DNA of 46,087 bases, taken from contig NZ_SSMQ01000089.1 in the NCBI RefSeq assembly GCF_005144585.1, forward strand, positions 1-46,087, in the 5' to 3' direction. Origin of the DNA: Polyangium fumosum. Its GTDB lineage: Bacteria; Myxococcota_A; Polyangia; Polyangiales; Polyangiaceae. Positions 1-45,915 of the stretch are shown one piece after another. The position numbers and the translations under genes are program-made. Each line of letters begins with the position of its first letter. The stretch's first letter is position 1. Below the pieces are notes generated by a model that had not been told where the DNA came from, searched no databases, and was given only the letters and a program-made list of their open reading frames with translations.

Positions 1-1618
1 GCCGCGCGTCGAGCTTCGCCTCGCCACGCGCCGCCCACGGGCTCGCCTCGCCACGCGCCACCGCAGCCAGCGACGTGAGCAGCTCCTCCCGCGAGCCTCC
101 CACCACCGCAAGACGGTGCTCGAAATGCCTGCGCCGGACACTCGCCGTATACGCAATGTCTTGAAGGGACGCCGCGCACTCCCCGGACAGGTAGCCTCGG
201 TAGGCGTCGACGAGCGCGGCGAGCGCTTCGGGGCTGCGCGCGGACAGCGGCAACACCCGGCTCGACACCTCCACGGGAGCCGCCGCCACGGCGCCCATCG
301 GTGCCTCCTCCACCACCACGTGCGCGTTGGTGCCTCCGATGCCGAACGAGCTCACGCCCGCGCGGCGAGGGGTCGCGCCACGCTTCCACTCCTTGAGCGC
401 AGCATTGACGTAGAAGGGGCTGTTCGCGAAATCGATCGCCGGATTGGGCGTCTCGAAGTTCAGGCTAGGCGGCAGCTCCCCGTGGCGAAGGGCCAGGACC
501 GTCTTGATCAGGCCCGCGACACCGGCTGCCGACTCCAGGTGCCCGAAGTTGCTCTTGATCGATCCGATGGCGCAAAACTGCTTCGCCGAAGTGCCAGCGC
601 GAAACACCCGGCTGAGCGCCGCGATCTCGATGGGATCCCCGAGCGGCGTCCCCGTCCCGTGCGCCTCGACGTACTGGATGCTCCGGGCCTCGACCCCCGC
701 GAGCCCCAGCGCCTCGGCGATCACCTGCGCCTGGCCCACTTCGCTCGGCGCGGTGTAACCGACCTTGAGCGAGCCGTCGTTGTTGATCGCGGATCCACGA
801 ATGACGGCGTGGATCATGTCGCCGTCGGCAATCGCCTCGTCCAGCCGCTTGAGGAGCACGATACCGGCGCCGTTGCCCGCGATCGTGCCCCGCGCCTTCG
901 CGTCGAACGTCCGGCAATGGCCGTCGGGGGCGAGGATGAACCCCTCCTCGTATCGATATCCGGCGTGCTGCGGGAGCCGAACGGTGATCCCGCCCGCCAG
1001 GGCCATATCGCATTCGCGATCCAGCAAGCTCTGGCATGCCAGATGGACCGCCACCAGGGACGTCGAGCACGCGGTCTGGACGCTGATGCTCGGACCCCGG
1101 AGGTTCAATCGATAGGAGGTCAGGGTCGCCAGGTAGTCCTTGTCATTGCCGATCATCTCCTGGAAGCCGACAGCGCCCTTCGCAATGAATCCGCTGGTCG
1201 TCAGGAAATGCGAGAGCAAATAGGTGCTCACGCTGGCGCCGGCATACACACCGATGGCGCCTTCGTACGCGAAAGGATCGTAGCCGGCACCCTCGAGCGC
1301 TTCCCATGCGCACTCCATGAAGATGCGATGCTGCGGATCCATCGTCGCCGCTTCGCGCGCGCTGACCCCGAAAAAGGATGCATCGTACCGATCGACATCC
1401 TGCAGGATCGCGCCGGCCCGCACATAACTTGGATCCTGCATCAACGTGCGATCGACCCCCGACGCCTGAAGCTGCTCCTCCGAGAAGAAGGCGATGGACT
1501 CCACGCCGTTCCGGAGATTCCTCCAGAGCTCGTCGACGTTCCTCGCGCCCGGGAACCTCCCGGCCATGCCGATGATGGCAATCGCGTCGGACAGCTCCTC
1601 AGGCTCACGCTCACTCAT
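1..1618 (-). CDS. Type I polyketide synthase, N-terminal part (KS plus KS-AT linker), runs off the left edge
   Basis: This is the first 539 codons of a modular PKS. A ketosynthase begins about 11 residues after the start (AIIGMAGRFPG) and has the active-site Cys in TACSTS (about residue 184), the His of VEAHGTGT and the His of SNFGHLESAAG, so it should be a working condensing KS. The GTNAHVVVEE end of the KS is followed by the linker that normally precedes an AT; the AT and later domains lie outside the window. The ATG at 1618 has a GAGGAA ribosome site about 9 bases upstream and follows the Cy-A-PCP NRPS stop by 57 bases. By position this KS should take the thiazoline-containing chain from that NRPS. 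There is no long N-terminal docking coil. Confidence 0.9.
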   Translation of the reverse strand, partial: MSEREPEELSDAIAIIGMAGRFPGARNVDELWRNLRNGVESIAFFSEEQLQASGVDRTLMQDPSYVRAGAILQDVDRYDASFFGVSAREAATMDPQHRIFMECAWEALEGAGYDPFAYEGAIGVYAGASVSTYLLSHFLTTSGFIAKGAVGFQEMIGNDKDYLATLTSYRLNLRGPSISVQTACSTSLVAVHLACQSLLDRECDMALAGGITVRLPQHAGYRYEEGFILAPDGHCRTFDAKARGTIAGNGAGIVLLKRLDEAIADGDMIHAVIRGSAINNDGSLKVGYTAPSEVGQAQVIAEALGLAGVEARSIQYVEAHGTGTPLGDPIEIAALSRVFRAGTSAKQFCAIGSIKSNFGHLESAAGVAGLIKTVLALRHGELPPSLNFETPNPAIDFANSPFYVNAALKEWKRGATPRRAGVSSFGIGGTNAHVVVEEAPMGAVAAAPVEVSSRVLPLSARSPEALAALVDAYRGYLSGECAASLQDIAYTASVRRRHFEHRLAVVGGSREELLTSLAAVARGEASPWAARGEAKLDAR

Positions 1619-1675
1619 ACGCACGTTCCTCTATCGAACACGGATTCCGCATGCACCCATCGACCAGCACGCTCG

Positions 1676-4600
1676 TTATCGACGCCCTCGGGCTTTCCTT
1701 CGGGCCTCTGCACGGGAGAGCGCCTTGTCGAGGGGCACCTCCTCGCTCCCGCCCTTCTGCAGGCGGGCCGCGAGGGCACTGATCGTCGCGTAGCGGAACA
1801 GCTCGACGACCGCGAAGTCCTTGGTGATGCTGTCCTTGATGCGACTCGCTATCCGGACCATCAGGATCGAGTTGATCCCCAGCTCGAAAAAGCTCTGGTG
1901 GATCCCGACTTTTTGGAGCCCGCTCACGTCCATCACGATGGCCGCGAGGCTCGCCTCCATCGCGTCCCGCGGCGCCACGAGCTCCGCCTCGGAAGAGACC
2001 GGCATGGCAATGAGCTGCAGCGCTTTTCGATCGACCTTGCCGTTGGCCGTCAAGGGCAGCGCGTCGAGCAGCATGAAACCCGCCGGGATCATGTATGCCG
2101 GCAATTTCGCGCGCAGAAAATCACGAAGCGCCGCGTCGAAGCTCCCCCTGCGCGCGGCGTCGGCGTTGCTCGGCACGACATAACCTATCAGCTGCTTTCC
2201 GCCGCCGTGCGCCCCCTTTGCCACCACCGCAGCGGCGGTGACGCCCGGATGCTGGACCAGCGCGGCCTCGATCTCGCCGAGCTCGATCCGGTGTCCACCG
2301 ACCTTCACCTGGTCGTCGTCTCGCCCCAGGAATTCGATGTTACCATCCCGCAGGTATCGGCCCATATCACCGGTCCGATAGAGCTGCTCTCCCGTCCGTG
2401 GATGGCGAAGGAAGCTCTCTCTCGTCTTCTGCTCGTCCCGCCAGTAGCCCTTGGCCAGCCCGATTCCGCCGATGTAGAGATGGCCCGGGACCCATACGGG
2501 ACACGCATCGAGCGCCTCGTCCAGCACGTGGAAGGTCTGATTCACCATCGGCCGGCCATAGGGAATGCTCTTCCACGCGGGATCGACGTGGTCGATCGGG
2601 TACAGGATCGACCAGATCGACGCCTCGGTGGCGCCGCCGAGGCTCATGACCTGAACCTTTCGCGCCTCCCGCGCGTCGTCGCCGACCAGCGCCGCGATGC
2701 GGCCCGGCAGCGTGACGGGAATCCAATCGCCGCTCATGAGGACCAGACGCAGCCGATCCGGCGTGGCCTCCGGCCGGCCGGTCGCGTGCTCCACCAGCAT
2801 CTCCATCAGCGTCGGCACGGAGTTCCAGAGGGTGACGCCCTCGCGGACGACGAGCTCCGCCCAATGCTCTGGATCCAGCCTGCGCTCCTGGTCCGGGAGC
2901 ACGATCGTCCCGCCCGCCGCGAGCAGACCGAAGATATCGTACACCGACAGATCGAAGCTCAACGAGGACACCGCGAGCACGCGATCTTCGTGGCCAACGC
3001 CGAAGCGACGATTGATGTCGAGGATCGTGTTGACCGCGCCGCGATGATCGATGACGACGCCTTTCGGCGAGCCGGTCGATCCGGACGTGTAGATCACATA
3101 GGCCAGATCCTCGGGTACCTGCACCGGCGAAAGGGGACCGTCCTCGAAGCCAGACCACGTCGTCTCGTCGTCGACGCAGAGCCGCGTGACCGCGTCGGGC
3201 CATTGCAGCCCGTCGTTCACCTTGGATTGGGTGAGGACCAGCTCGACCTGACCGTGTGCGATCAAATAATTCCGTCGCTCCTCCGGGAGCGCCGCGTCGA
3301 TGGGTAGATACGCGGCGCCGGACGCGACGATGCCGAGCACCGCGGCCACCTGCTCCCAGCCTTTCTCCATCACCACGCCGACCAGCTTCCCCGGGGCTGC
3401 CCCCTCCTTTCGCAGGCGGCGCCCAATGCGACAGACCAGGCGGTCGAGCTCGCCGTACGTCATTCGCCTCTCCGGCGAAACAATGGCGAGATGCGTCGGG
3501 CGGGCCTCTGCCTGCGAGGTGAACAGGGTGTGGAGCAGCTCGGTCGAGGTCGGCTCCTGTGTGAGGTTGGCCCGGCGGCGGGGCTCGAGGTGCTCCTCGC
3601 GCAGGAGCAGGGGCGCCGTCACGGGCTCCTGCCACGCGGCGTCGTCCGAGGCCAGCCGTTCCAGGAGGCGGGCGTAGGCGTCGAACATATCGGCGACCAT
3701 TCCCTCGGGGAACATCGCATCGATCGCGTCCCAGTGGAAACACAGCTCGCCGTCATGCTCGTAGGTCTGGTGATCCAGCCAGACTTGCGGCGTCTGGGTG
3801 ACCGCGTAAACGCTCTTTCCGAGCCAGCCCATTCGCCAGTTCTCGGCGCAGGGCAGCCCGAGGAGGCTCGTGAACACGATGGGCATCAGGTCGAGATCCA
3901 TCCGCCCGCGGGCCCGCGTGACCTCCCGCATGACCCGCACGCCACCGACGTGGGAGTGATTCATGTCCTCCAGCAGCCGCGCCTGGAGGTGCTGTGCGCG
4001 CGCCGCAAACCCGCCCGGAGGGGCGTCACACGTGAGCAGGAGTGTCGACGTGAAGTCTCCAATGAGATCGTTGACCTCCGCATGGAGGGGCAACCTGCGG
4101 AACATCGTCAGGGTGATGCTGAAGCGCTGGCGCCGGCTCCAGATCCGGAGCACCTCCGAAAAGGCGGCGGCGAGCATCCCTGTCGGCGTCATTCCCAGCT
4201 CCGCGGCCCGACCCTTCAGGCGTCGCCAGGCGTCCGCAGCGAGCGTGCCCGCGTGGCGGAGGACCTCGGGCTGCCCAGCGGCCGGCACCGGTCCGAGTGG
4301 CAATTCGGGGGCCGTCGGGAAGTCGACCACACGACGGAACCAGTAGGATTCCGCCGCCCGTACCTGATCCGAGCCCTGGAGCCCCGCCTCGGCGACCACA
4401 TAATCCCGAAACGAAAGCCCCGGCCTGACCCAGGGCGTGGAGGAATCGCGGTAAAGGTGTCGCCACTCCTCGATGAGCCGGAGGAGGCTCGCGGCGTCCA
4501 CGAGGAAGAGATCGATGCTGAAATAGATCCTCGTGTGGCGCTCGTCGAGGCGAATCGCCCGGATGTCGAACAGCGGCCACACCTCGAGATTGTAGACCCG

Positions 4601-5125
4601 GTGGGACATCGACCGGCGTGTCTCTTCGAGCATGGCAAGGACCGCTTCCGGAGGCTGCCCTCGCAGATCGAGCGTCTCGATCCCGTAGGTGGGCACCGCC
4701 TCGAGGAAATGCTGCCTGCCATCGGGGAGTACGACCGTCCGGAGCACGTCATGGCGGTCGATGAGCTGCCGCCAGGCGGCCGCCAGGCAATCGATATCGA
4801 GATCGGCGGCGTCGACCTCCGAATAGAAATGACACCCGACGTTCCCGCCCGCGGTGGGTACGAGCCGGCCCAGCAGATAGGCCTGCTGAATCTCGGTGAG
4901 CGGGAAAGGGAGGTGCCGCTCGGCCGGAGCCGGTACGAGCTGGGACGCGGAGCCGTGCTCGGATCGGCGCAAAAGCGCCAGGATCTCCTGCTTGTGCTCC
5001 ACGATTCGATCGCGGAGCGTGGCGTCCAGTGTCCCTCGCGGGGCTCGAATTTGAAGCTGCTCTGCCTCGACCGAGAGCTTGACGCCGAGCCGCGCAAGAT
5101 CGGTCAGTAGCTGGACCGCGCTCAT
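1676..5125 (-). CDS. NRPS module: TubC docking - Cy - A(Cys) - PCP
   Basis: A 1,149-residue NRPS expected to load cysteine and cyclise it to a thiazoline. Residues 1-55 resemble a TubC-type N-terminal docking domain. The condensation-type domain carries the heterocyclization motif DxxxxDxxS (D205, D210, S213) in place of HHxxxDG. The adenylation domain has YTSGSTGSPKG, and its specificity positions read by hand are D-L-Y-N-L-S-L-I-W, with Lys in NGKVDRK, matching the classic Cys code. The PCP attachment Ser is near residue 1086 (LGINS). No oxidase domain is inserted before the PCP, and the length is about that of Cy-A-PCP alone, so a thiazoline is predicted unless another oxidase acts. The start at 5125 is chosen because it overlaps the upstream PKS stop as ATGA and gives the docking domain its usual beginning. 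Confidence 0.93.
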   Translation of the reverse strand: MSAVQLLTDLARLGVKLSVEAEQLQIRAPRGTLDATLRDRIVEHKQEILALLRRSEHGSASQLVPAPAERHLPFPLTEIQQAYLLGRLVPTAGGNVGCHFYSEVDAADLDIDCLAAAWRQLIDRHDVLRTVVLPDGRQHFLEAVPTYGIETLDLRGQPPEAVLAMLEETRRSMSHRVYNLEVWPLFDIRAIRLDERHTRIYFSIDLFLVDAASLLRLIEEWRHLYRDSSTPWVRPGLSFRDYVVAEAGLQGSDQVRAAESYWFRRVVDFPTAPELPLGPVPAAGQPEVLRHAGTLAADAWRRLKGRAAELGMTPTGMLAAAFSEVLRIWSRRQRFSITLTMFRRLPLHAEVNDLIGDFTSTLLLTCDAPPGGFAARAQHLQARLLEDMNHSHVGGVRVMREVTRARGRMDLDLMPIVFTSLLGLPCAENWRMGWLGKSVYAVTQTPQVWLDHQTYEHDGELCFHWDAIDAMFPEGMVADMFDAYARLLERLASDDAAWQEPVTAPLLLREEHLEPRRRANLTQEPTSTELLHTLFTSQAEARPTHLAIVSPERRMTYGELDRLVCRIGRRLRKEGAAPGKLVGVVMEKGWEQVAAVLGIVASGAAYLPIDAALPEERRNYLIAHGQVELVLTQSKVNDGLQWPDAVTRLCVDDETTWSGFEDGPLSPVQVPEDLAYVIYTSGSTGSPKGVVIDHRGAVNTILDINRRFGVGHEDRVLAVSSLSFDLSVYDIFGLLAAGGTIVLPDQERRLDPEHWAELVVREGVTLWNSVPTLMEMLVEHATGRPEATPDRLRLVLMSGDWIPVTLPGRIAALVGDDAREARKVQVMSLGGATEASIWSILYPIDHVDPAWKSIPYGRPMVNQTFHVLDEALDACPVWVPGHLYIGGIGLAKGYWRDEQKTRESFLRHPRTGEQLYRTGDMGRYLRDGNIEFLGRDDDQVKVGGHRIELGEIEAALVQHPGVTAAAVVAKGAHGGGKQLIGYVVPSNADAARRGSFDAALRDFLRAKLPAYMIPAGFMLLDALPLTANGKVDRKALQLIAMPVSSEAELVAPRDAMEASLAAIVMDVSGLQKVGIHQSFFELGINSILMVRIASRIKDSITKDFAVVELFRYATISALAARLQKGGSEEVPLDKALSRAEARRKARGRR

Positions 5126-8100
5126 ACCGTGACGATCTCCCACTCCTCACCCGTGCTTGATTCCCCGACCGTGTCGCGCACCGCGCTCACCAGGCTCTCC
5201 GATGTCAATTGCTCCAGGAGATAGGAGCTGATCCGGCGGACATCCCCCTTCTGGAGGACGAGCATGGTCGGCACCGCAATCCCCAGGGTGGCTTCGATGC
5301 GGTTCCTCATGATCATGGCCATTAGCGAGTCGAGCCCCAGCTTCCCGAGCGGCAGGAGGGGATCGATGTGCGCCGACTCGAGCTGCAGGACCTCCGCGAG
5401 CTGCGCCGAGAGAAACTCCTCGAGCAGCCGCCGGCGATCACCGGGAGCGGCTGCATGGAAGGTTTGTCGCAGGGAGGACGCGCTGCGCTGCGGTTTGTCC
5501 CTGCGCTCGTGCTCATTGCCGACATACGCATCGCTCGAGGGCTCTCCGGCGCCGTCCCTCCAAGCAGCCGCCGCGATCCAGTACGATCGGCGCTGCCACG
5601 GGTAGGCTGGGAGCGCCACGCACTTCGCGCTGTCGGGATAAAGCGGCGCGAGATCCACCGCGGCCCCCCTCGTGTACAGCGCCCCCATGACCCGGAGGAG
5701 GTGGCGCCGCGCCTCCTGCCCGCGCCGGATCGAAAACAGCACCTGTCCCTGCACCCGCTCCGCCGCGAGACACCGCTCCAGGTGAGCGGCGAGCACCGGG
5801 TGCGGGCCCACCTCCAGGAAGAGCCGATGTCCGTCACGGATGGCCGTTCGCATTGCGTCCGCGAGCTTGACCGGCTCCCGGATATTCCTCCCCCAGTACG
5901 CCGCGTCCAGGGCATCGCCCGGGACGCGCTCACCCGTCACCGTGCTGTACATCGTGCCGGCCGTCGATTGCACGGAGACCGCGCGCAGCGCGCGCACGAA
6001 CTCCTCCCGCAGGGGATCCATCTGCGGGCTGTGGAACGCATAATCGACCCGGAGTTCCTGGCAGCGTAGCCCCTCGCCCGAGAGCCGGGCGAGCGCCTGC
6101 GAGAGCGCGGCGGTCTCCCCCGAGAGCACCACCGAGCCCGGGTCATTGACAGCGCCGATCGCGAGCCGCCCCTCGTACCTGGAGAGCATTTCGGCCGCCG
6201 CACCGGCCGTCATCTCCACGGCCGCCATTTTCCCGCGACCCGTGGCATGCTGCATCACCCGGCCGCGGCAACACACGAGGCGCACCGCCTCCGCGAGCTC
6301 GAGGGCGCCCGCGACGTGGGCCGCGGCCACCTCGCCGACGCTATGCCCGATCACCGCGTCGGGCCGCACGCCCCACGACGCGAACAGGGCGGCGAGCGCC
6401 ACCTCTATCGCGAAAAGTGCCGGCTGCGCCACGGCCGTCTCCCCGAGCCGCGAAGCCGCCTCGGGCGCCAGGATCTCCTCGATCACCGAGAACCCCGCGT
6501 GCGGCCGCATGAGGGCGTCGCACTCCTCCATCACCCGCCGGAAAACCGACTCCTCGGCGAGCAGCGCCCTCCCCATCCCCGCCCATTGCGATCCCTGCCC
6601 CGGAAAGACGAACACCACCCCGGGCATGCCCCCGGGCTCGACCTTGCCCCGGACGACGCCGGCGTGCCATTCGCCGCGCGCCGCCGCCGAAAGCGTGGCG
6701 TGCATCTCCTCCCGCGTCCCGCCGATCACGGCCAGGCGGTGCTCGTGGTGGGTGCGGCGAAGGCCGGCCGTGCAACAGAGATCGGATATCGCGAGATCGG
6801 GCCGCTCTACGAGCCAGGATGAAAGGTCGCCCGCGCGTGCGCTCAGCGCGGCCTCGGACCGGGCGGAGAGCACGAGCAACTCCGCGCGCGGCTCGTCGGC
6901 CGCTGCCGCGCATGCGACATCGCCCTGAACCTCTCCCGTGCGACGCGCAGGGACCCCCTCGAGCACGACGTGGCAGTTGGTGCCTCCGAATCCGAAAGAA
7001 CTCACGCCGGCCAGCGCCGGTGCATCGCCAACAGCCGGCCATGCCTCGACAGCGTCTTGCACCTTGAGGCGCAGCTTTCCGAAGGGGATATCTGGATTCG
7101 GCTCGCTGAAATGGAGGTTCGGCGGGATGAAGCGGTGCTTCAAGGCCAGCGCTGCTTTGATGAGGCCTGCGACCCCGGCTGCGGATTCGAGGTGACCGAT
7201 GTTGGTCTTGGCCGAGCCTATCCGGAGCGGGCGCTCGGCCGGGCGACCCGCGCCGAGTACGGCTCCGAGCGCGCTTGCCTCGATACGATCACCGAGAGCC
7301 GTCCCGGTGCCGTGGGCCTCGACGTAGCACACATCGGCGGGATTCACCCCTGCCCGCGCGTAGGCCTCCCGGAGCAGCGCCTCCTGAGCCTCGACGCTCG
7401 GCGCGAGCAGCCCGTCGCCGAATCCGTTGTTGTTCACCGCGCTGCCACGAATGACGCAATAGATCGGGTCGCCGTCCGCGAGCGCGAGGGAGAGCGGCTT
7501 GAGCACCACCACCCCGCCGCCCTCGCCGCGCACATAGCCGTCGGCGCGCGCATCGAACGCCTTCGAGCGGCCGTCGCGGGCCATGGTTCCGAGCTTGGAC
7601 ATGGCGATCGTGCTCTCGGGAGCGAGGATCAGGTTCACGCCCCCGGCGAGGGCGAGCGTGGATTCGCCGCTGCTCAAGCTCTGGCACGCCATGTGGACGG
7701 CGACGAGGGACGACGAACTGGCGGTGCTGACCGCGATGCTGGGCCCCCGAAGGCCGAGCGAATACGAAATCCGGGCCGGAATGATGCTCAGGTCCTGCCC
7801 CGTGGCCGTATGCTGGAGGATGGCGTCGGGCCTCCCGCCCGCGATCCTGGCATAATCGCTCCACATCGCCCCGAAGAACACGCCCGTCTGGGTCGCCGTG
7901 AGGGCATCCACCGGTACCCCTGCATCCTCCAGGGCCTCCCAGGAGAGCTCGAGCATGAGCCGCTGCTGGGGGTCCATCTCCGACGCCTCGCGCGGGGAGA
8001 TCCCGAAGAACAGGGGATCGAACTGGTCCACCTGCTCGAGAAAGCCCCCCCAGCGCGTGTTCATCTTGCCGGGAGCGTGAACGTCGGCGTGATAGAATGC

Positions 8101-8277
8101 GTCGGCACTCCATCGTGCGCTCGGCGTCTCCGTGATCGCGTCCTCGCCCCTGCACAGCGTCTGCCAGAAGGCGTCGGCACTCGGGCCCTTTGGGAGGCGA
8201 CAGGCGAGACCGATGATCGCGATCGGCAGACTCCTCGACGGCACGCCGGGATCCCGTCGCTCACGTATCCATCGCAT
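5122..8277 (-). CDS. PKS loading module KS(Cys to Ser)-AT-ACP
   Basis: A 1,051-residue PKS with three domains. The KS (about 17-440) is full length and keeps the His of VEAHGTGT and KTNIGHLESAAG, but the active-site motif is STASSSS: Ser187 (codon AGT, 7719-7717) replaces Cys. Such KS variants (KSQ; KSY in EpoA; KSS in the polyene loading protein NysA) decarboxylate the bound malonyl unit in loading modules and do not condense. The AT (about 560-850) has GHSVGE and a YAFH motif, intermediate between malonyl (HAFH) and methylmalonyl (YASH) types, so substrate choice is open. The ACP Ser is near 984 (GLDS). No KR, DH or ER lies between AT and ACP. The ATG at 8277 has GAGGTGA nine bases upstream. 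A GTG at 8289, overlapping the cyclase stop as GTGA, is an in-frame alternative. The gene overlaps the next NRPS by ATGA. Confidence 0.92.
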   Translation of the reverse strand: MRWIRERRDPGVPSRSLPIAIIGLACRLPKGPSADAFWQTLCRGEDAITETPSARWSADAFYHADVHAPGKMNTRWGGFLEQVDQFDPLFFGISPREASEMDPQQRLMLELSWEALEDAGVPVDALTATQTGVFFGAMWSDYARIAGGRPDAILQHTATGQDLSIIPARISYSLGLRGPSIAVSTASSSSLVAVHMACQSLSSGESTLALAGGVNLILAPESTIAMSKLGTMARDGRSKAFDARADGYVRGEGGGVVVLKPLSLALADGDPIYCVIRGSAVNNNGFGDGLLAPSVEAQEALLREAYARAGVNPADVCYVEAHGTGTALGDRIEASALGAVLGAGRPAERPLRIGSAKTNIGHLESAAGVAGLIKAALALKHRFIPPNLHFSEPNPDIPFGKLRLKVQDAVEAWPAVGDAPALAGVSSFGFGGTNCHVVLEGVPARRTGEVQGDVACAAAADEPRAELLVLSARSEAALSARAGDLSSWLVERPDLAISDLCCTAGLRRTHHEHRLAVIGGTREEMHATLSAAARGEWHAGVVRGKVEPGGMPGVVFVFPGQGSQWAGMGRALLAEESVFRRVMEECDALMRPHAGFSVIEEILAPEAASRLGETAVAQPALFAIEVALAALFASWGVRPDAVIGHSVGEVAAAHVAGALELAEAVRLVCCRGRVMQHATGRGKMAAVEMTAGAAAEMLSRYEGRLAIGAVNDPGSVVLSGETAALSQALARLSGEGLRCQELRVDYAFHSPQMDPLREEFVRALRAVSVQSTAGTMYSTVTGERVPGDALDAAYWGRNIREPVKLADAMRTAIRDGHRLFLEVGPHPVLAAHLERCLAAERVQGQVLFSIRRGQEARRHLLRVMGALYTRGAAVDLAPLYPDSAKCVALPAYPWQRRSYWIAAAAWRDGAGEPSSDAYVGNEHERRDKPQRSASSLRQTFHAAAPGDRRRLLEEFLSAQLAEVLQLESAHIDPLLPLGKLGLDSLMAMIMRNRIEATLGIAVPTMLVLQKGDVRRISSYLLEQLTSESLVSAVRDTVGESSTGEEWEIVTV

Positions 8278-8285
8278 GTCTCGTT

Positions 8286-9554
8286 TCACCTCGACGAATT
8301 GACGCCTTGTTCGAATGCGATCATTTCGACCCCCGAGACGGACAGCTTGATCTCTTTGAATCCGCTCACGTCCACGAGGTCCTTCATCGCGTGGCTCAGG
8401 TAGATGTGCCCTGGAGTGCCCTTGTCCTGGGCCATCTTCGAGGCGATGTTCACCGGCTGGCCTGCGATATCCCTGCCACCCGTCGCCAGGTCGAAGATCA
8501 TGAGGGTGCCCGCATCGATGCCGATGCGGCAAGAGACGTCCTGCCTCGTCAGATCCGCGCCGAATTCTCGCGCAAAGGCAAGGGCGGCGGTGCCGGTATC
8601 GAAGACGTAGATGCCCAGCGGCCCGACCACCTTGATCTCGGTGCCATTGTGCTGCGAGAGGTGCCGCATGCCCACGTCCTTCATGAAGGCGGAGAGGGCC
8701 ATGTTGCCGAGGAGATCGACCTCGTAAGACTCGTCGGGCTTGCTTTCCCGCTCGATGAGCACGACGACCTTGCTTTGCGTGTACCTCTGCAGTATCCGTG
8801 CGCCGAACGCGGCGTCGTGGAGCGCGGCGTCGTAGGTGATGAGCTCGCCGTAGAATTGCTCCGAGTAGGGGATCGGATATCTCTCCTTCGTGGGTACGAC
8901 GCCGGAGAGGCGCGGCCCGTCCACGATACGGTACAGGCTGCCAACCACCATCGGCTCGTCCTCCCGCTTGACGGCGGTGAACGCGTGCGTCGGCGGTAGG
9001 AGGTCGAGAAAGGCCTGGGTGATGACGATTTCCCCGCCTGCGGTGTCATTTTCGGCGATCTCTTCAATGGCGTCCGCCTCGGTGCCGTACAGGCCGCCGC
9101 TGATCGAATAGAATTCGCCGTAATGTGCGCCGAGGCCGATCTTGATCTGGCACCTCTCGTTGATCTCGTCCTGTATCGTCAGCAGCGCCGAGAGCAGGGT
9201 CTCCGCCGAGACGGCGGGAGGGTAGAACATTTGGGTGTTGTCCGCGGCCCAGATGCCGACCCCCTGCCCGCCGATCGCCGCACCGTAGCCATATACGATT
9301 TCCTTCGGCTGGCTGAGGATCGCCAGAATCTCGATGAGGCTTTTTTGCCCCGAGAGCTTGGTCAGACCAGACGAGTCGGAGGAGACGCTGTAACCTCTGA
9401 CCTTGAAAGGCTCGAGCAGATTCTGGGCATCCTGTGGTCCCTGTTCACTGCTCAACCATCGCTCGACGAGCTTCACCGGCAAAGTGCCGGTGATGTCCTG
9501 CGCGACGTCGAAGAGGCTAGGCGAGTACTGCTCCCTTGTGGCTTTGAACCCCAT
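8286..9554 (-). CDS. Tandem nucleotidyl-cyclase-like protein (class III fold, divergent)
   Basis: A 422-residue protein without signal peptide or membrane segment. Two class III cyclase-like halves can be seen. The first has SSDSSGLTKLS (Asp60), like the FSDIxGFT metal-binding motif. The second has CRIGIDAG, DIAGQPVNIASKM (about 363-374) and KVVGPLGIYVF. Several catalytic positions are altered: the second metal Asp of the usual GDxxMA motif is Gly or Pro (GGQGVGIW, GPLGIYVF), and the Arg of VNxAxR is Lys. Activity as a true adenylyl cyclase is therefore doubtful, and a nucleotide-sensing or pseudoenzyme role is possible. AGGG precedes the ATG. It is the first gene of the leftward PKS/NRPS operon, and its stop touches the PKS start region (GTGA at 8289-8286), so co-expression is likely. 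Confidence 0.75.
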   Translation of the reverse strand: MGFKATREQYSPSLFDVAQDITGTLPVKLVERWLSSEQGPQDAQNLLEPFKVRGYSVSSDSSGLTKLSGQKSLIEILAILSQPKEIVYGYGAAIGGQGVGIWAADNTQMFYPPAVSAETLLSALLTIQDEINERCQIKIGLGAHYGEFYSISGGLYGTEADAIEEIAENDTAGGEIVITQAFLDLLPPTHAFTAVKREDEPMVVGSLYRIVDGPRLSGVVPTKERYPIPYSEQFYGELITYDAALHDAAFGARILQRYTQSKVVVLIERESKPDESYEVDLLGNMALSAFMKDVGMRHLSQHNGTEIKVVGPLGIYVFDTGTAALAFAREFGADLTRQDVSCRIGIDAGTLMIFDLATGGRDIAGQPVNIASKMAQDKGTPGHIYLSHAMKDLVDVSGFKEIKLSVSGVEMIAFEQGVNSSR

Positions 9555-10805: not shown

Positions 10806-11888
10806 TTACTGTCCGCTCCCCTGTGTCCCTTGTTCGCTCGCAGTCGACGCAGGAGTCGCTTGAGACGCGGATGTAGCGGTTTCCTGATTCTTTTTCCCAT
10901 CTGCGGAGCTGGAAACCTCGCCCGGCGCTGCTGCCAGAGCGCCCGTGGCTCCATCGACGTTCAACAGCATCTGCGCTCCCGGCCCCCCGCCTAGCACGAC
11001 CACCTTCGTGTTCTGCGATCTCGCGAGCTCCAACTGCGACTTCGCGAGCTCCAGCGACGCCTCGATCGTACGCCACTTGAGCATGTCCGGAGAAACTTTA
11101 CTCGCGATGAGGTTGTAGTCGCGGATCCCAGCCGCCTCCGTTCGCCTCCGCTCGGCCTCCTTCTCTTCCTTCTCCAGCCGGAAGCGATACTCGAGCATGA
11201 GCTGCTCTTGCTTGTACTTGTCGGCGATCGCGCTCTGAACGATCTCGGGCAGCTCGATATCAATGAGCTTGAGCTCGTAGAGCTGCACGTAGGGACGCGC
11301 ATTGCCGCTTTCATCGAGGCGCCCGAGCGCCGATACCTTGCCGACCTCCTGCAGGAGGTCACGCACGCTCGTGTAGATCTCGTGCGCCGTCCGGTTGCCG
11401 AAGGTGCGCCGGACGTGGGACTCGACCTCGGGCCGAATCAACCGCTCGAAGTAATCGACACCGATGTCCTGGTGTAGGTAACCGAGCATGTCCCTGTTCG
11501 GCTGGTATCGTACGGAGACCTCCAGCGGGAGGTTGAGCCCCTCCTCGCTGAGCACGTCGAATTTCAGCTTTTGCTGCTGCATCCGCGTCTCGTAGACGGT
11601 GAGCTCGTCCCAGGGCGGGACCACGTTGAGTCCCTCGCCCCAGATACGATCCGTCACCGTCCCACCGAGGAAAAAACGATACATGACGGCGCTGCTCCCC
11701 GCCGGCACGCGGATGAAGATCCGCGGCCAGAGGAAGCCAACCAAGAACAGGAGGACGACCAGCGTCGTATAGAGGGTGAATCGGGCCTTCCGGAGCCACT
11801 TCACGAGCCGCTCCCGGAAGGGTGGCTTCTTCACGTCGCCACTCGAAGATCCCTTTTGCATCTCTTCATCCGCTTCCGGCTTGCTCAT
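10806..11888 (-). CDS. SPFH/band-7 (prohibitin-like) membrane protein
   Basis: A 360-residue protein with a short charged cytoplasmic N-terminus, one membrane segment (about 36-56), then an SPFH/band-7 domain (IFIRVPAGSSAVMYRFF, later SVRYQPN and RPEVESHVRRTFGNRTAHEIY). A charged helical coiled-coil stretch follows (about 225-300, rich in Lys, Glu and Arg), then a low-complexity Ala/Ser/Thr/Gln tail. SPFH proteins oligomerise into membrane-associated cages or microdomains that organise partner proteins. It is the last gene of the NRPS operon, 23 bases after the second DUF697 gene. Its placement suggests a role in the envelope response to, or export of, the peptide; that role is inference. Confidence 0.85.
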   Translation of the reverse strand: MSKPEADEEMQKGSSSGDVKKPPFRERLVKWLRKARFTLYTTLVVLLFLVGFLWPRIFIRVPAGSSAVMYRFFLGGTVTDRIWGEGLNVVPPWDELTVYETRMQQQKLKFDVLSEEGLNLPLEVSVRYQPNRDMLGYLHQDIGVDYFERLIRPEVESHVRRTFGNRTAHEIYTSVRDLLQEVGKVSALGRLDESGNARPYVQLYELKLIDIELPEIVQSAIADKYKQEQLMLEYRFRLEKEEKEAERRRTEAAGIRDYNLIASKVSPDMLKWRTIEASLELAKSQLELARSQNTKVVVLGGGPGAQMLLNVDGATGALAAAPGEVSSSADGKKNQETATSASQATPASTASEQGTQGSGQ

Positions 11889-11911
11889 GGGCGGCTCTCA
11901 TCATGCGCTGG

Positions 11912-12628
11912 TCAGGACGGCTTGGTCGCCTTGGAGTCCTCTTTGGACTTCTGCACGTCCGCGACGTACTCCTTGGCGTTCTCGAATTCCTGCTTGAAGT
12001 GGCTGCGCACTTTGTGAGGATCAAAATCGAGCAGCGTGCCGCCTGTCTCGAAATGCATGACAAATACCTTTCCTAGCGCCCGGGTGAACGCGCCCGAGAT
12101 GACGGGGACCGTGACGATGCCGAACGCGGTGCCCACGAACGGAATGAGCTTCCCCAGGCTGGCACCGATCACAGCGCCGGCGCCGACGCCGAGGACTCCC
12201 GAGAGGAGCGAGCCGATGAGCTTCTTGGCGATGTCCTCCCGAAAACTCAGCTCATAAAGCTCCGAGAGTTCGGCGAGCATTTTCACCTGAACGCCCGTGA
12301 CCGCGATGATATCAGCGACAGGCACGGGAACGAGCCCGACGCCGAGCGCCCACAGCACGTTGCGCCGAATGATGGCATCCGCGCGGCCCACGCGTGAAAC
12401 GGGCTCAGGGGACTTCGGCGCGGTGCTGCTCGGGGACTTTCCCTCGGCCTTCGGCTCGACCTTGGCTTCGGCCTTCGGCTCGACCTTGGCTTCGGCCTTC
12501 GGCTCGACCTTGGCTTCGGCCTTCGGCTCGACCTCGGATGTGCTCGTCGCCTCCTCGGTCACCTCGATTTTCGGCGCGTCCGTCTTCTTCTCTGTCGACT
12601 GTTTAGATTGCGTGGTTTCGTTCGCCAT
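11912..12628 (-). CDS. DUF697 (YcjF-like) membrane protein with Lys/Glu/Ala-rich repeat
   Basis: A 238-residue protein. Residues 1-80 are acidic and disordered, with about four copies of the octapeptide VEPKAEAK encoded by a 24-bp tandem repeat. The domain that follows (about 80-200) has the DUF697 pattern: RADAIIRRNVLWALGVGLVP, then VADIIAVTGVQVKML and ELYEL, followed by Gly-rich hydrophobic stretches (GVLGVGAGAVIGASLG) that probably insert into the membrane. The end has HFETGGTLLDFDP and a charged helix. DUF697 occurs in YcjF and Era-like GTPase fusions, where the molecular role is poorly known. It is a clear paralogue of the protein at 35654-36220 in the same operon, which shares VFxMHFETGGT near the C-terminus. 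Confidence 0.82.
   Translation of the reverse strand: MANETTQSKQSTEKKTDAPKIEVTEEATSTSEVEPKAEAKVEPKAEAKVEPKAEAKVEPKAEGKSPSSTAPKSPEPVSRVGRADAIIRRNVLWALGVGLVPVPVADIIAVTGVQVKMLAELSELYELSFREDIAKKLIGSLLSGVLGVGAGAVIGASLGKLIPFVGTAFGIVTVPVISGAFTRALGKVFVMHFETGGTLLDFDPHKVRSHFKQEFENAKEYVADVQKSKEDSKATKPS
12444..12537. repeat. 24-bp tandem repeat, about 3.9 units, inside the DUF697 gene
   Basis: Units start at 12444, 12468, 12492 and 12516 (the last one partial). On the coding strand each encodes VEPKAEAK in a shifted register. The units are nearly identical in DNA, so copy number may vary between strains. Confidence 0.9.
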
Positions 12629-12667
12629 GATTCCTCTCCGGTTGCAGGTCGAGAAAATGAGCAGGTA

Positions 12668-14221
12668 TCAGTGTCTCCCCGTCGCGTCCCGCCAAGCGCG
12701 CGTGAGTTCTGCTACAAACTTACCGTCCAGGCGCGGTGCCTCTACGAACGTCGTGTCGAGCTCCACGCCATAACGTCGAAATTTGAGAAATGGATTCTCG
12801 GTGTCCTCGATGTTCCGGAGCTTCAATTCGGTGTTCACCGGTCGGAACCCCCGTTTGACGGCCAGCTTCTGCATCTCCATGCTGCGAAGGAAGCCGATCC
12901 ACTTCTCGGCAGCCGTGCGTTGCTCGGCGGTGATCTGGCCGTCGTCGAAGATGACGACAGGATGCTCGTTCACGATCGTCGGCTGCGGATACACGACGCG
13001 CACTTCCGTCATGACGTCGGCATGCATGTCGATCTGCTGGAAGACACCGAAAATGAGATGCTCCTGCGTCACCACGGCGTCATATCGGCTCGCACCGAGG
13101 CTGAACATGGCATCGGTCAAAACATCCGCCGACGCTGTGGGCGGCGGTGCTCCTGCCTCGCATCGCTCGAGCCAGCGCTGGAAAGGTTCACGTCGCTCCT
13201 GAAACGAGCGCGCGAAGTCCGCCTCGGCGAGATCACCTCGCACGATCCCCCCCTCTTTCGCGGGTTGCTCGAACGCCTCCTTGATGCGCTCTTGGAGCGC
13301 GGCCGGCCTGTCGCTCGGCGGCAATGCGTACTCGTACGCCATCAGGTACAGCGCTTCGAGCCCCTCCGCCGAGCGCGTCGGCGATGGGTGCGTGATTTTC
13401 ACCTGTCCCCACCGCTTGATTTCGTCGACCGTCGGAAACGGCGCGATATAGGCGCGCTTGGTCCTCTTGTCGACCCGCCGAGCCGCCGGCGCCGGTGGTT
13501 GCGGGAGCGCGGCCGGGACGACCGAGTCGTACCAATCGCTCCACGTCCCCGGCACCTTGTGTTCGAGGGCCATCTCATCGAGATTCTGCGGATCCCTCGG
13601 CACCCCCGGGCACAACGAGTTCACCCACTGCCCTTCACCATTCTTGTTTTTCTCGAAGATCGCTCCGAGGACCTCGAGCCGGTCTTCCCATATCAAGACC
13701 ATGAGCGGGGATCGGACGAGCGAGACCTGCTTCGTGATGTCGAATGGCGATCGATCATGATCCTCCCTCCAGCGAGCATCGAAATAGCGGAGGACGAGAT
13801 CATCCGCGGGGGACCAGATCGTCGGCTTCACTTCGCCTTTCAGGATGGCGTCGGCTCCCTCGACACTGCTCGCCGAAGTCGCTTTGATCTGGATCGTCGG
13901 ACATATTTTCGCAAACCGAGTTGCTGCCTCGTCGATCCACGCCCGCTTGTCGCCGCTGTACAGCATCTCGACAATGATGGTGTGGCCGTCCTGCGGCGCC
14001 GGCCCGCACGTCTCGCTCGAGACGCCGTTCGTGACGTTCACGTCCGCGAGCCGTGATGGCTTTGGAAGGTCGATCACGAACCTGCCACCTCGCGCGAAAA
14101 ACGCAGCAAAAAGAGCGAGCAGCCCCGAGGAGATGACAATGTCGCGAATGGTGAGCCCGAGCGTCGTTTTTCTCGAGCGATGTTCGTCGTGTTTCCGAAT
14201 CGGGGCCACGAGATCCTCCAT
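12668..14221 (-). CDS. Membrane-anchored extracellular solute-binding protein (PBP type 2 like)
   Basis: A 517-residue protein with a positively charged N-terminus, one membrane segment (about residues 25-45, GLLALFAAFFARGG), then a large exported domain. HTIIVEMLYSGDKRAWIDEA and the following EGADAILKGEVKPTIWSP resemble SBP_bac_11-type solute-binding proteins, including those that occur fused to vWA domains; no vWA domain is present here. The C-terminal part (ITAEQRTAAEKWIGFLRS) also fits that fold. The ATG at 14221 shares its A with the last base of the TGA stop of the preceding gene (TGATG). No dedicated permease is next to it, so a scaffold or sensor role is as likely as import. The exact ligand cannot be read from the sequence. 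Confidence 0.72.
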   Translation of the reverse strand: MEDLVAPIRKHDEHRSRKTTLGLTIRDIVISSGLLALFAAFFARGGRFVIDLPKPSRLADVNVTNGVSSETCGPAPQDGHTIIVEMLYSGDKRAWIDEAATRFAKICPTIQIKATSASSVEGADAILKGEVKPTIWSPADDLVLRYFDARWREDHDRSPFDITKQVSLVRSPLMVLIWEDRLEVLGAIFEKNKNGEGQWVNSLCPGVPRDPQNLDEMALEHKVPGTWSDWYDSVVPAALPQPPAPAARRVDKRTKRAYIAPFPTVDEIKRWGQVKITHPSPTRSAEGLEALYLMAYEYALPPSDRPAALQERIKEAFEQPAKEGGIVRGDLAEADFARSFQERREPFQRWLERCEAGAPPPTASADVLTDAMFSLGASRYDAVVTQEHLIFGVFQQIDMHADVMTEVRVVYPQPTIVNEHPVVIFDDGQITAEQRTAAEKWIGFLRSMEMQKLAVKRGFRPVNTELKLRNIEDTENPFLKFRRYGVELDTTFVEAPRLDGKFVAELTRAWRDATGRH

Positions 14222-14946
14222 CAATCGACGTATCCATCCGGTCGAAACGCTGCATCCACGACCTCCTCCCAAAGCGTCGGCAATTTTGGGATATCGGCGG
14301 CTGCGACGCGTGCCATGAGCTCGTCGCGGGAGGAGACGTCGAACTTCCGGACATAGGCGAGCAGGCATTCCGGACGCGAGAACAAGAACATCAGATCGGT
14401 GAGCTGCATCGAGCGAATCACCAGCATCGGGTGCGGCGCCTCGAGGGGGCGGTAGTCAGGGTTGTGCAAGCCGGGCTCGAGGCAGCCGGGGTAGAATTGG
14501 CCAATCATCAAGCCCTGCGCGGTGATCTCGGGCTTCAGCGCCTGGTGCACGGGGTCGATCAGCATGGGCCCGCCGTCGTTGGGCAGGTCCGGAAACAGGG
14601 TCAGGATGGCGCGGAACTCGCGGCCGACCTCGGTGGCGGGCGGCAGCGTCGGAAAGCGCGCCGCAAGCGCGCGCATCACCGGCTCCACGGCGGCGCGGTG
14701 GAGCTCGCCCTGGTACACGTGAAAGCGAATGGCCCGAAAGCGGGCCAGGGCAGGCCCGACGAAGGGGCAGACGTGGCCCTTGCGACCGAGCTGCGGATTC
14801 GGCTTGGCGATGTAGGTCTGGAGCCAGGTCAGCACCTCGAGCAGCTGCGCGCGGGCATGTGCAGGCAGATCGACGCTCTGCTCGACGAGCTGGTTGGCGC
14901 TGAGCAATTCAGGCTCACTGGCCATTTCATCGATTCTCGGGTTCAT
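14221..14946 (-). CDS. Conserved protein of unknown function
   Basis: A 241-residue soluble protein without signal peptide or membrane segment. Visible features are a GHVCPFVGPAL motif (around residues 57-67), an FHVYQGE segment, HPMLVIRSMQLTDLMFLFSR, and an acidic C-terminus. I cannot assign it to a named enzyme family with certainty; it may belong to a DUF6875-type family. It overlaps the upstream exporter gene by ATGA and the downstream solute-binding gene by one base, so it is translated as part of the NRPS operon. The CPF and HP motifs could suggest a metal- or thiol-dependent enzyme, but this is a guess. Confidence 0.6.
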   Translation of the reverse strand: MNPRIDEMASEPELLSANQLVEQSVDLPAHARAQLLEVLTWLQTYIAKPNPQLGRKGHVCPFVGPALARFRAIRFHVYQGELHRAAVEPVMRALAARFPTLPPATEVGREFRAILTLFPDLPNDGGPMLIDPVHQALKPEITAQGLMIGQFYPGCLEPGLHNPDYRPLEAPHPMLVIRSMQLTDLMFLFSRPECLLAYVRKFDVSSRDELMARVAAADIPKLPTLWEEVVDAAFRPDGYVD

Positions 14947-16568
14947 GCGCGTTCCACAGACCGAATTCGGCCATACTCCATGGTGATCACACGATCCGCA
15001 CAGTGGAAAAATCGGTCGTCGTGGGTAACTGCAATGACCGTCTTCCCTCGCTGCTTCAGCGCCGGCAAAAGCTCTTCATAGAAATACGTGCGGAACTCGG
15101 GGTCCTGATCAGCGGCCCATTCGTCGAACACACAGATGGGCCGATTCTCGAGGAGCGTCACGATCATGGCCAGGCGCTTGCGCTGTCCGGTGGAGAGATT
15201 GCGGTTCGTGAAGCCCTTGTTCTCGAACGACGTCTTCTGCTGCAGATCCATCTGCGCGAGCAGCCGATGCACGGCCGCTGGGTCGACGTCGAGCAGCCCA
15301 TAGAGCTTGGCGAACAGGTGGAAGTCCGAGTAGATGGCCGAGATCTTCTCCCGATACGCGGCGACATTGCTGGAATCGACGCGTATCCCGCCGACCATAA
15401 GCTCACCGCCCGTCGGCGGATACAGCCCCGTGAGCACCTTGAGGGCCGTCGACTTGCCGCTCCCGTTTCCGCCGACGATGAACACGATCTCGCCTTCCGC
15501 GATGTCGACGTCGAGGGGGCCGATGCGAAACGCGCCGTCGCCGTCCTCGGAAACGTATTCGAATTCGATACCGCGCCCCGCGATGGCGCCGAATCCACCT
15601 CGCCATGCGTCCTCGGCGTCCAGCGCGATTTGTGTCTCCAGGATGGCCTTGTCGAGCTTTTCCTCCAGCGTCCGCGCCCTGTCCAGCGCCACATTCGAGC
15701 GAATATATGCCGGCGCCCCCGTGATCAGCACGGTCATCGGTCCCCAGAGGAACAGGATGGCCGCGACGATCCCGACCAGCACAGAGGAGTCCACGTCAAT
15801 GTGCTGTGGGATGACGAGAACGATGACGCCGAGCAGCGCATAGAGGTTACAACTCGCGAAGATGACATTGTCTCCATTCATCTCGCCCGACTTCAGGTTG
15901 AAGCCCTGCAACACCTCCGACGACCGCTCGATGTTGGTGCAGATGTCGCGGCCGCGCCGACGGCTGAGCTTGACCTCCTTGAAACCCTTCAGCAGGTCCG
16001 TGAGCTGATCGAAGAACACGACACGAGCGTCCCCGAGGCGCTGCAGATAGCGCTCGAGTTCCTTGGCCCTGTCTCGATACGTCGAATAACCGATGGCGAG
16101 CAGGAGTGTAATGGCGATGAAGGTTGGCAACGAGATCCAGGCGATGTACAGCACCGCGAACGCCAGGATGAGGGCCGCTTGCAAAAATGCTGCTATCAGC
16201 GGCCCATAGTTGGACACGACGCTCAGGTTTTCCGTGATCCCGTCGTAAATCGCCGCGGTGCCGATGCGCTCGACCCCCTGGATGTCCGCCTTTTCGAGCT
16301 TGTCGACGATCCTGATCTTGATCTGGTGCAGCGCCGACTCCACGACCGTGGCCGTCCGGCAGTACATGTACTTGGCGCTGATGTAATGGCCGGCGACGAC
16401 GAGCGCGAAGAGGCTTGCCGCCAGCAGCCCCGAACGCTCCGGCGCGCTGGCGACCACATTCGCCCCGATGAGCACGAACATGCTCGTGGCGCCCGCCACG
16501 CACGCCGCCATGAGGATGCGACGGCGCTCGCCTCCCGCCTCCTGGGTGATGAGATCGACGATCGTCAA
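14943..16568 (-). CDS. Cyclic-peptide-type ABC exporter half-transporter 2 (SyrD/PvdE family)
   Basis: A 541-residue fusion of six membrane segments and one ATPase domain. Walker A is VGGNGSGKST (about residue 365), the signature is LSTGQ, Walker B is CVFDEWAADQDP and the switch His is in VTHDD; all are intact. FDEWAADQDPEFR is typical of the SyrD/PvdE/cyclic-peptide exporter family. The start is taken as TTG at 16568, overlapping the stop of the first exporter as TTGA. This aligns the beginning (xTIVDLITQEA) with that of the neighbour (MYVLDLLLEEA) and no closer ATG fits. It probably pairs with the adjacent half-transporter as a heterodimer to export the peptide made by the large NRPS. Confidence 0.88.
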   Translation of the reverse strand: MTIVDLITQEAGGERRRILMAACVAGATSMFVLIGANVVASAPERSGLLAASLFALVVAGHYISAKYMYCRTATVVESALHQIKIRIVDKLEKADIQGVERIGTAAIYDGITENLSVVSNYGPLIAAFLQAALILAFAVLYIAWISLPTFIAITLLLAIGYSTYRDRAKELERYLQRLGDARVVFFDQLTDLLKGFKEVKLSRRRGRDICTNIERSSEVLQGFNLKSGEMNGDNVIFASCNLYALLGVIVLVIPQHIDVDSSVLVGIVAAILFLWGPMTVLITGAPAYIRSNVALDRARTLEEKLDKAILETQIALDAEDAWRGGFGAIAGRGIEFEYVSEDGDGAFRIGPLDVDIAEGEIVFIVGGNGSGKSTALKVLTGLYPPTGGELMVGGIRVDSSNVAAYREKISAIYSDFHLFAKLYGLLDVDPAAVHRLLAQMDLQQKTSFENKGFTNRNLSTGQRKRLAMIVTLLENRPICVFDEWAADQDPEFRTYFYEELLPALKQRGKTVIAVTHDDRFFHCADRVITMEYGRIRSVERA

Positions 16569-18196
16569 GGCGCATCCATTCGGGTGGTCGCCTGGACCTT
16601 CCCGTAACTCAACTTGATGACGCGGTCCGCGCAATGAAAGTAGCGATCATCGTGGGTGACGGCGATGACCGTCTTGCCCCGGCCCTTCAACGCGGGCACG
16701 AGCTCCTCGTAGAAGTACCTGCGGAATTCAGGGTCCTGATCGGCAGCCCACTCGTCGAATACGTAAACGGGGCGATCCTCGAGGAGCGTCATGATCGTGG
16801 CCAGACGCCTGCGCTGGCCGGTCGACAGCGTGCGCCGGGTAAATTGCTGCTCCTCGAAAGAGGTCTTCCCCTTTAGGCCCATCTGCGCGATCAGCGCGCG
16901 CACCGCCTCCGGCTCCGCGTCGAGCATGCCATAGAGCTTGGAGAAGAGGTGGAAGTCCGAATAGATCGCCGAAATCATCTCGCGGTACGCGGCCACGTTC
17001 TCCGGCTGGACGAGGGCGCCGCCGACGCGCAGTTCTCCGCCGCTCCGCGGGTAGAGCCCCGTGAGCACCTTGAGCAGCGTCGATTTGCCGCTCCCGTTCC
17101 CACCGACGAGAAAGACGACCTCGCCCGGCTCGATGTCGAGGCTCAGGGGGCCGACACGGAAGCACCTGTCTCCGTTGTCGGAGGGATACTCGTACACGAT
17201 ATCGCGTGTCGAGAGTGTGCCCATGCGACCGTTCCACGGATCCTCCGGCTTCTGGACTGCCGCTCGCTGAACTGCCTCATCGAGCTTCCCCTCCAGCGCC
17301 CGGATCTGTTCGAATGCGACGCTGGAGCGGAACACCGCATTGAGCCCGCCGGCCACGCTGGTGAAGGGGCCCCATACGAACGCGGTGCACGTGACCAGGC
17401 TGGCCATGGTCGGAACATCCACGCCGCTGTACCTAGGCAGGGTGAAAATGACCGCCCCCAGCAGGATGTACAGGACGCAGTTGGGCATGACCAAGACGCC
17501 GCTGAGCCCCTCGGCCGTCCTCACGGCGCCGGTGCGGAGGGACTCGGCCATCGTCACGATATCGTCGTGGATCTCACGCCCACGTCGGCGGCTGAATTTG
17601 GCTTCTTTGAAGCCCTTCAGCAGATCCATGACCCTATCGAAGAGCTCGAGCCGTAGCTGCCCCATCTGGCGCAGCACAGGGACGACCTCGTCGAATCTGT
17701 ATTGAACGATGAAGAAACCGAACACCAACATGAGCGCGATCAGCGCAAAGGCTGGCAACGAGATCCACGCAATGTAAACGAGCCCGAACACGAGGACGAA
17801 GAGCGCCTGCAGGAAGCTCCCGAGCACCCACCCTTGCTCCGACACGACGGACATGTTCTCCGTGACGCGATCGAAAATCTCTGCGGTCCCGACGCGCTCG
17901 AGCCCCTCGAGCTCCGTTCGCTCGATCTTCTCGGCGATCCTCGTTCTTATGCGGTGGAGCAGAGCTTCGACGAGGGACGTCGTCCGGTGGTACGTTGCTC
18001 GAGCACCGAGCACGTAGGTGGCCATCGTCAACCCGAACAGGAAAAGCGCCCGCATGTCCGCCCACTCCGGGGCCCCGGCGAGGACATTGGCGCCGACGAG
18101 GAGGAGGGCGTTCGCGATCCCCCCCATCGTCGCGACGGCCAGGAGGGAAGCTCGCTGCCCCTTCGCCTCTTCGAGGAGAAGGTCTAGGACGTACAT
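16565..18196 (-). CDS. Cyclic-peptide-type ABC exporter half-transporter 1 (SyrD/PvdE family)
   Basis: A 543-residue membrane-ATPase fusion. Six predicted membrane segments precede the ATPase domain, which has Walker A VGGNGSGKST (about residue 364), signature LSTGQ, Walker B YVFDEWAADQDP and the His of VTHDD. It is a close paralogue of the next gene, sharing SRRRGR after LLKGFKE and FDEWAADQDPEFR. Chosen start: the ATG at 18196, which overlaps the stop of the large NRPS by 13 bases. Family members export lipopeptides and siderophore precursors (SyrD, PvdE). Co-transcription right after the NRPS makes export of its product the natural role. Confidence 0.9.
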   Translation of the reverse strand: MYVLDLLLEEAKGQRASLLAVATMGGIANALLLVGANVLAGAPEWADMRALFLFGLTMATYVLGARATYHRTTSLVEALLHRIRTRIAEKIERTELEGLERVGTAEIFDRVTENMSVVSEQGWVLGSFLQALFVLVFGLVYIAWISLPAFALIALMLVFGFFIVQYRFDEVVPVLRQMGQLRLELFDRVMDLLKGFKEAKFSRRRGREIHDDIVTMAESLRTGAVRTAEGLSGVLVMPNCVLYILLGAVIFTLPRYSGVDVPTMASLVTCTAFVWGPFTSVAGGLNAVFRSSVAFEQIRALEGKLDEAVQRAAVQKPEDPWNGRMGTLSTRDIVYEYPSDNGDRCFRVGPLSLDIEPGEVVFLVGGNGSGKSTLLKVLTGLYPRSGGELRVGGALVQPENVAAYREMISAIYSDFHLFSKLYGMLDAEPEAVRALIAQMGLKGKTSFEEQQFTRRTLSTGQRRRLATIMTLLEDRPVYVFDEWAADQDPEFRRYFYEELVPALKGRGKTVIAVTHDDRYFHCADRVIKLSYGKVQATTRMDAP

Positions 18197-35595: not shown

Positions 35596-35653
35596 CGTAT
35601 GTCGTGATTGAGTCTCGTGGTATCGATGCGAGCCCGAGGACCGACCAGCAGGC

Positions 35654-41161: not shown

Positions 41162-45915
<4,754 letters not shown>

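Follow-up and report, generated by a model that had tools for sequence, protein, structure and literature searches.

Epothilone is an anticancer drug whose methylthiazole cap is a standard example of a hybrid start; the modules that follow the ring are all PKS. Loading modules in which serine stands in for the KS nucleophile, together with an AT and an ACP, have precedent in polyene PKSs such as RimA and NysA, where, as PMC4540446 describes them, they feed a PKS module and their role as decarboxylases is debated. The thiamyxins are myxobacterial PKS-NRPS products with thiazolines, which according to PMC10100342 lie within the chain, and their starter is of the GNAT type.

We analyzed a stretch of 46,087 nucleotides from Polyangium fumosum (the window), which is the start of contig C188 in a genome (G000) of 12,979,202 bases and 201 contigs. 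From the sequence, we consider it probable (roughly 0.78) that the window holds the start of a complete cis-AT PKS-NRPS line with the predicted chemistry and structure of a 2-methylthiazoline-capped polyketide-dipeptide. In this line a KS(Ser) module would feed a heterocyclizing NRPS protein, unlike the polyene modules of PMC4540446. The kind of system, an epothilone-like sulfur-ring start, is known; what is new is probably the variant, which has no oxidizing step and a different rest of the molecule.

Domains of the loading and ring-forming genes

The window begins with three tightly packed genes on the minus strand, P0003 starting about 50 bases past P0001 (Table 1). An earlier note on this DNA had read KS(Ser)-AT-ACP, Cy-A-PCP and a normal KS, in that order, from 8277 to 1. 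Pfam domains and motifs agree with this order, and the interval is correct, 8277 being an ATG of the loading gene and its likely start.

Table 1. Positions of the start genes and their domains in the window, with the related KS(Ser)-AT proteins of other genomes
Feature	Position	Strand	Basis or remark
Loading gene KS(Ser)-AT-ACP (P0002)	5122..8277	-	Pfam; ORF spans 5122-8532; likely start ATG 8277, alternative GTG 8289
Loading KS domain	6958..8226	-	Cys nucleophile replaced by Ser, motif TASSSSL, codon AGT at 7719-7717
Loading AT domain	5662..6615	-	malonyl-type motifs GHSVGE / YAFH
Loading ACP	5218..5412	-	GLDSL motif
Cy-A-PCP gene (P0001)	1676..5125	-	Pfam; ORF 1676-5143; ATG overlaps the loading-gene stop (ATGA)
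TubC-type N-terminal docking domain	4967..5113	-	Pfam; match to PDB 5t7z EpoB
Cy domain	3629..4921	-	DLFLVDAAS motif and T/D/Q catalytic residues
A domain	2036..3523	-	pocket code DLYNLSLIW; EpoB Ox insertion missing
PCP domain	1760..1948	-	Pfam
First extension module, KS (TACSTSL) and KS-AT linker (P0003)	1..1624	-	leaves the contig at its start; following the contig path, goes on as AT-DH-KR-ACP on G000:C53
Other KS(Ser)-AT proteins	G113:C1:6726273 (L239), G113:C1:8737669 (L240), G124:C1:9102243 (L238)		the three form one clade; all in the 9-row clade of the loading KS

By motif reading, the loading KS has Ser for Cys and retains both active-site His motifs. The nucleophile motif is TACS[ST][SA]L in 11 of the 11 other KSs compared (five from the same line and six from a line in genome G004). 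Cysteine also stands at the nucleophile column in 72 of 73 KS matches of the GTDB loci, the remaining one being a fragment without a letter there.

The loading AT has the Arg of extender-type ATs, and for its GHSVGE and YAFH motifs we rejected a methylmalonyl-type AT, on our assumptions about what such motifs say of malonyl and methylmalonyl and about the role of the pocket Arg. GHSMGE and VASH are found instead in the ATs of modules 3 and 6, and an unusual VPSH in that of module 5. Since the loading AT is malonyl-type, an acetyl starter and 2-methylthiazoline are favored; of the two starters offered in the earlier note, the 2-ethyl form is disfavored. No ER was found in the loading protein by Pfam, and the ER query that matches EpoA did not match it. 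Making acetyl requires no reduction, so the missing ER is probably of no consequence for the starter.

The pocket code of the A domain is identical to that of EpoB and common to 56 of 131 Cy-A rows, with columns placed by hand. We take this code to mean cysteine, EpoB having served as its control. The Cy domain has the DxxxxD motif and the T/D dyad with its helper Q, and the residues D, D, T, D and Q (DDTDQ) are the same in 93 of the 131 rows. With EpoB's pocket code and the catalytic residues both present, the earlier assignment of Cy and A(Cys) stands. The T-D spacing of 32, with Q at +2 (EpoB numbering), agrees with the dyad and helper residue of the solved HMWP2-Cy2 as described in PMC9547227. 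Pfam finds no oxidase domain in P0001, and the alignment with EpoB has gaps at residues 991-1005, where the Ox insertion would sit.

As a control we used the EpoA-EpoB-EpoC start of a relative (G122:C1:7143500-7156500), in which the domain search gave KS(TAYSSSL)-AT-ER-ACP, Cy-A-Ox-PCP and KS(TACSTSL)-AT. Across 494 compared residues, EpoB of this relative is near-identical to PDB 5t7z, and the flanking proteins are taken as EpoA and EpoC by place and domains. P0001 is 52.4% identical to EpoB over 1129 aligned columns, without the Ox insertion; between the loading protein, which has no ER, and EpoA the identity is 45.1% (921 columns). The loading ER and the Ox, which the earlier note had called absent, were found by neither query here, whereas the control shows both. 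The two starts share the order of loading KS(non-Cys)-AT-ACP, docking-Cy-A(Cys)-PCP and KS, a malonyl-type loading AT, the A pocket code and the docking tails. The loading protein ends in ...EEWEIVTV, resembling the ...QDWEIIAL of EpoA, and P0001 ends in RAEARRKARGRR, like the RVEARRKGRRRS of EpoB. They differ in the loading nucleophile, which is Ser here and Tyr in EpoA, and, provided that the contig path given below is correct, in the two NRPS modules and TE at the end of the present line.

The line across three contigs

The coding-sense ends of C188 and C53 have exactly 127 bases in common, as do the coding-sense starts of C53 and C174. Judging from assembler behavior, these matches would be the trace of de Bruijn assembly around a collapsed repeat. 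At the starts of C53 and C174 (modules 2 and 4), the AT-DH stretches are 99% alike over 400 bases and 95% alike over 1200, which points to recent duplication of a module or to gene conversion. The assembly likely breaks because these stretches are near-identical. No further near-identical copy of the contig ends was found in the genome among the scored candidates (40 of 451 and 40 of 118).

The simplest path would run from C188 through the repeat to C53, and through the repeat again to C174. The assembly lacks the joining repeat, which covers roughly 120 residues at the N-terminal end of two AT domains, and we thus infer the frame across it and the course through it. Since C188 and C53 enter one repeat and C53 and C174 leave one, C188 might also lead directly to C174, with C53 a free circle. 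We find this unlikely; a single linear path using C53 once fits the end matches. C53 could be present in more than one copy.

Through these contig-end matches, the remaining PKS modules that the earlier note expected in the left flank were traced to C53 and C174. The domains of C53 are AT-DH-KR-ACP-KS-AT-DH-KR-ACP-KS. C174, with domains annotated from about 22 kb up, encodes AT-DH-ER-KR-ACP-KS-AT-DH-ER-KR-ACP, then KS-AT-KR-ACP-C-A-MT-PCP-E-C-A-PCP-TE. There are no stops within the translated ORF pieces of the line. The whole line thus has a loading module, Cy-A-PCP, five PKS modules (reductive sets DH-KR, DH-KR, DH-ER-KR, DH-ER-KR and KR, in order), C-A-MT-PCP-E and C-A(Pro-like)-PCP-TE.

The E domain was named by its position and by the stretch HHLAVDSVSWR, which we take to be an E-domain motif. 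The pocket codes, read from the alignment, are DAFFLGVTF in module 7 and DVQFIAHVV in module 8, presumably suggesting a branched aliphatic residue and proline, respectively. The DH domains of modules 2, 4 and 5 do not have the usual Gly of HxxxGxxxxP, and we counted this against our main reading. An epothilone cluster is ruled out by these downstream modules together with the Cy-A tree. The earlier expectation of a different thiazoline-capped polyketide therefore holds insofar as the product would not be an epothilone, but the NRPS modules of C174 point to a polyketide-dipeptide hybrid and not to a pure polyketide.

Relatives and histories of the parts

A scan of GTDB genomes with P0001 confirmed 329 relatives, and the best 80 of the 329 were used, as 75 loci. 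In the family, 16 of 108 genomes have P0001 matches at 1e-240 or better. KS motif patterns gave 36 family matches with a Ser(TCN), Tyr, Gln, His or Pro nucleophile and 10 with Ser(AGY); the exact motif was required, so others may be missed. Forty of these 46 matches came with loci and were tested, and five of the 40 are KSs (that of the window, that of EpoA, two of G113 and one of G124). Among these five, Cy follows only the KSs of the window and EpoA. No Cy follows the KS(Ser)s of G113 and G124 in the 20 kb stretches read, where PKS modules follow instead.

We then compared the parts in quick trees (LG+G4, SH-aLRT only). The Cy-A tree contains 50 of the 131 rows, made up of the genome-search loci, 19 chosen rows of the GTDB loci and the window. 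In this tree, EpoB clusters with the Ox-bearing protein of G001 and the Ox-less one of G004 (100, starred). The window's Cy-A, 52% identical to that of EpoB, falls outside this clade, and no starred set includes it. It pairs weakly (92, unstarred) with a row of G045 that carries Ox; across the tree, 11 changes are required to explain the Ox label. In the KS tree (65 rows), the KS that follows the ring in the window and the one that follows EpoB are sisters (SH-aLRT 95, 74% identity). The loading KS falls in a nine-row clade (99) with the three other KS(Ser)s and five Cys KSs (two from G122 and one each from G023, G113 and G004, that of G004 being its starter KS). The KS of EpoA falls in another clade.

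Because only the post-ring KS is sister to that of EpoC, with KS(Ser) and Cy-A outside the clades of the EpoA KS and EpoB Cy-A, the parts appear to have different histories, and by these trees the start is a mosaic with an epothilone-like layout. The earlier description of the locus as mirroring EpoA-EpoB-EpoC is thus apt for the layout and docking ends, but in the trees for the third KS only. Tentatively, and at somewhat under even odds, the epothilone-type start may have arisen at least two times in the family from different parts. A KS of another clade would have lost its Cys to Ser and joined a Cy-A of another lineage and an EpoC-like KS, with an oxidase that was lost or never there, and the products would be 2-methylthiazoline-capped polyketide-N-methyl-D-amino acid-proline compounds of a new family.

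Among cyanobacteria, Fischerella sp. PCC 9431 (L076, 6681-20790) comes close to the epothilone start, encoding KS(Cys)-AT-ACP, Cy-A-Ox-PCP and an NRPS with a methyltransferase and TE.

Predicted product and neighboring genes

In the pathway that we propose, the AT would load malonyl, and decarboxylation by, or around, the Cys-to-Ser KS would give acetyl-ACP. The Cy-A-PCP protein would join acetyl to cysteine and cyclize it to 2-methylthiazoline-4-carbonyl. With no Ox, the ring should remain a thiazoline and would be passed to the first normal KS. The product would be completed by five PKS modules, one NRPS module that N-methylates and epimerizes, a second that is proline-like, and a thioesterase. 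In the open-access literature searched, we found no matching compound and no description of such a start. A natural counterpart of the epothilone start with neither Ox nor ER, and with a KS(Ser) of another clade, would offer a direct test of KS(Ser) decarboxylation and of how well downstream PKS modules accept an unoxidized ring. Traced across three contigs, the line gives a definite starting point for isolating a new compound.

The origin of the acetyl group could be different. In NysA, PMC4540446 reports that another serine (S413) seemed more important than the Ser replacing Cys and that acetyl-CoA may also serve, which leaves decarboxylation by KS(Ser) uncertain. The KS(Ser) might likewise be inert here and the AT take acetyl-CoA, with the same product, because malonyl decarboxylated or acetyl loaded directly leads to the same ring; alternatively, methylmalonyl would lead to 2-ethylthiazoline. 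Given the malonyl-type motifs and extender-type Arg of the loading AT, unlike the VASH ATs of the line, a starter other than acetyl from malonyl seems highly improbable. The chance that the Ser is a base-call error in an ordinary KS(Cys) module is smaller again. Such an error is conceivable because AGT is a single change from TGT, a codon used by one of the line's five Cys KSs, and because the KSs closest to it in tree path (two from G122, one from G023 and the starter KS of G004) have Cys. However, the other four Cys KSs use TGC, the loading gene is otherwise intact, and the clade of its KS contains three more KS(Ser) proteins from the family. The predicted starter would also hardly change if the Ser were Cys.

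Oxidation of the thiazoline by an enzyme encoded elsewhere would instead give a true epothilone-type methylthiazole. Thiazoline oxidases with a nitroreductase fold can be stand-alone proteins, as BmdC is for bacillamide (PMC8795117). The nitroreductase model has five matches in the genome, on C77, C44, C156 (two) and C114; one on C156 is also a strong match, the only one in the genome, to the SagB-type model, and any of them could act in trans. However, none of the five is on C188, C53 or C174, and in tblastn (>80 residues, E 1e-5) the EpoB Ox matched none of the five loci, whereas it did match an Ox of G001. In a six-frame search, the EpoB Ox query also matched nothing in the window, in C53 or in bases 1-59999 (of 60,266) of C174, including the part below about 22 kb. 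The stand-alone oxidase that the earlier note had raised for the left flank was therefore not found on the continuing contigs with either the Ox query or the nitroreductase model. Cy-A-PCP proteins of G004, G113 and G114 are without Ox as well. We regard oxidation in trans as improbable and prefer the unoxidized 2-methylthiazoline. The window also has a multicopper oxidase gene (37782-39722, plus strand) beside a sigma-54 activator with an FHA domain (39734-41161), and we found nothing linking this oxidase to the line.

Upstream of the loading gene are an NRPS of 5848 aa with five A domains (18184-35730, minus strand) and genes for two ABC transporters and DUF6875, SBP-like, DUF697 and Band 7 proteins (10806-18424, minus strand). 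The set from ABC to Band 7 is 78-95% identical in the congeners G002, G003 and G004 (78-93% in G002 and G003). Beyond Band 7, tblastn (E 1e-5, >80 residues) gave no match to KS, AT or Cy in 22 kb of G002, to the contig end, or in 29 kb of G003. Because the accessory genes are conserved in these two genomes without such matches nearby, the NRPS appears not to belong to the line; it and the accessory genes look more like an independent conserved cluster next to a PKS that varies.

A thiazoline-type PKS lies on the same side of Band 7 in G004 (G004:C1:10496184-10539577, L111-L114), adjoining the same ABC, DUF6875, SBP, DUF697 and Band 7 genes. Like the present line, it has a starter protein, an Ox-less Cy-A-PCP, PKS modules, an NRPS module and a TE. 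However, its starter is ACP-KS(Cys)-AT-AT-DH-ER-KR-ACP, its module order differs, and its Cy-A has the code DLFNISAVW and belongs to EpoB's clade. This placement beside an Ox-bearing sister suggests that Ox was lost in the Cy-A-PCP of G004. Transposase and reverse-transcriptase genes lie between that PKS line and Band 7.

Directly upstream of the window's loading gene, and ending at its start, a gene at 8286-9554 (minus strand) encodes a 422-aa protein weakly similar to nucleotide cyclase, which had no tblastn match >80 residues in the stretches of G002, G003 and G004. At the far side of the window, 41158-45915 (minus strand) encodes a kinase-STAND NTPase-WD40 protein of 1585 aa, and an nSTAND3 protein is also encoded on C174.
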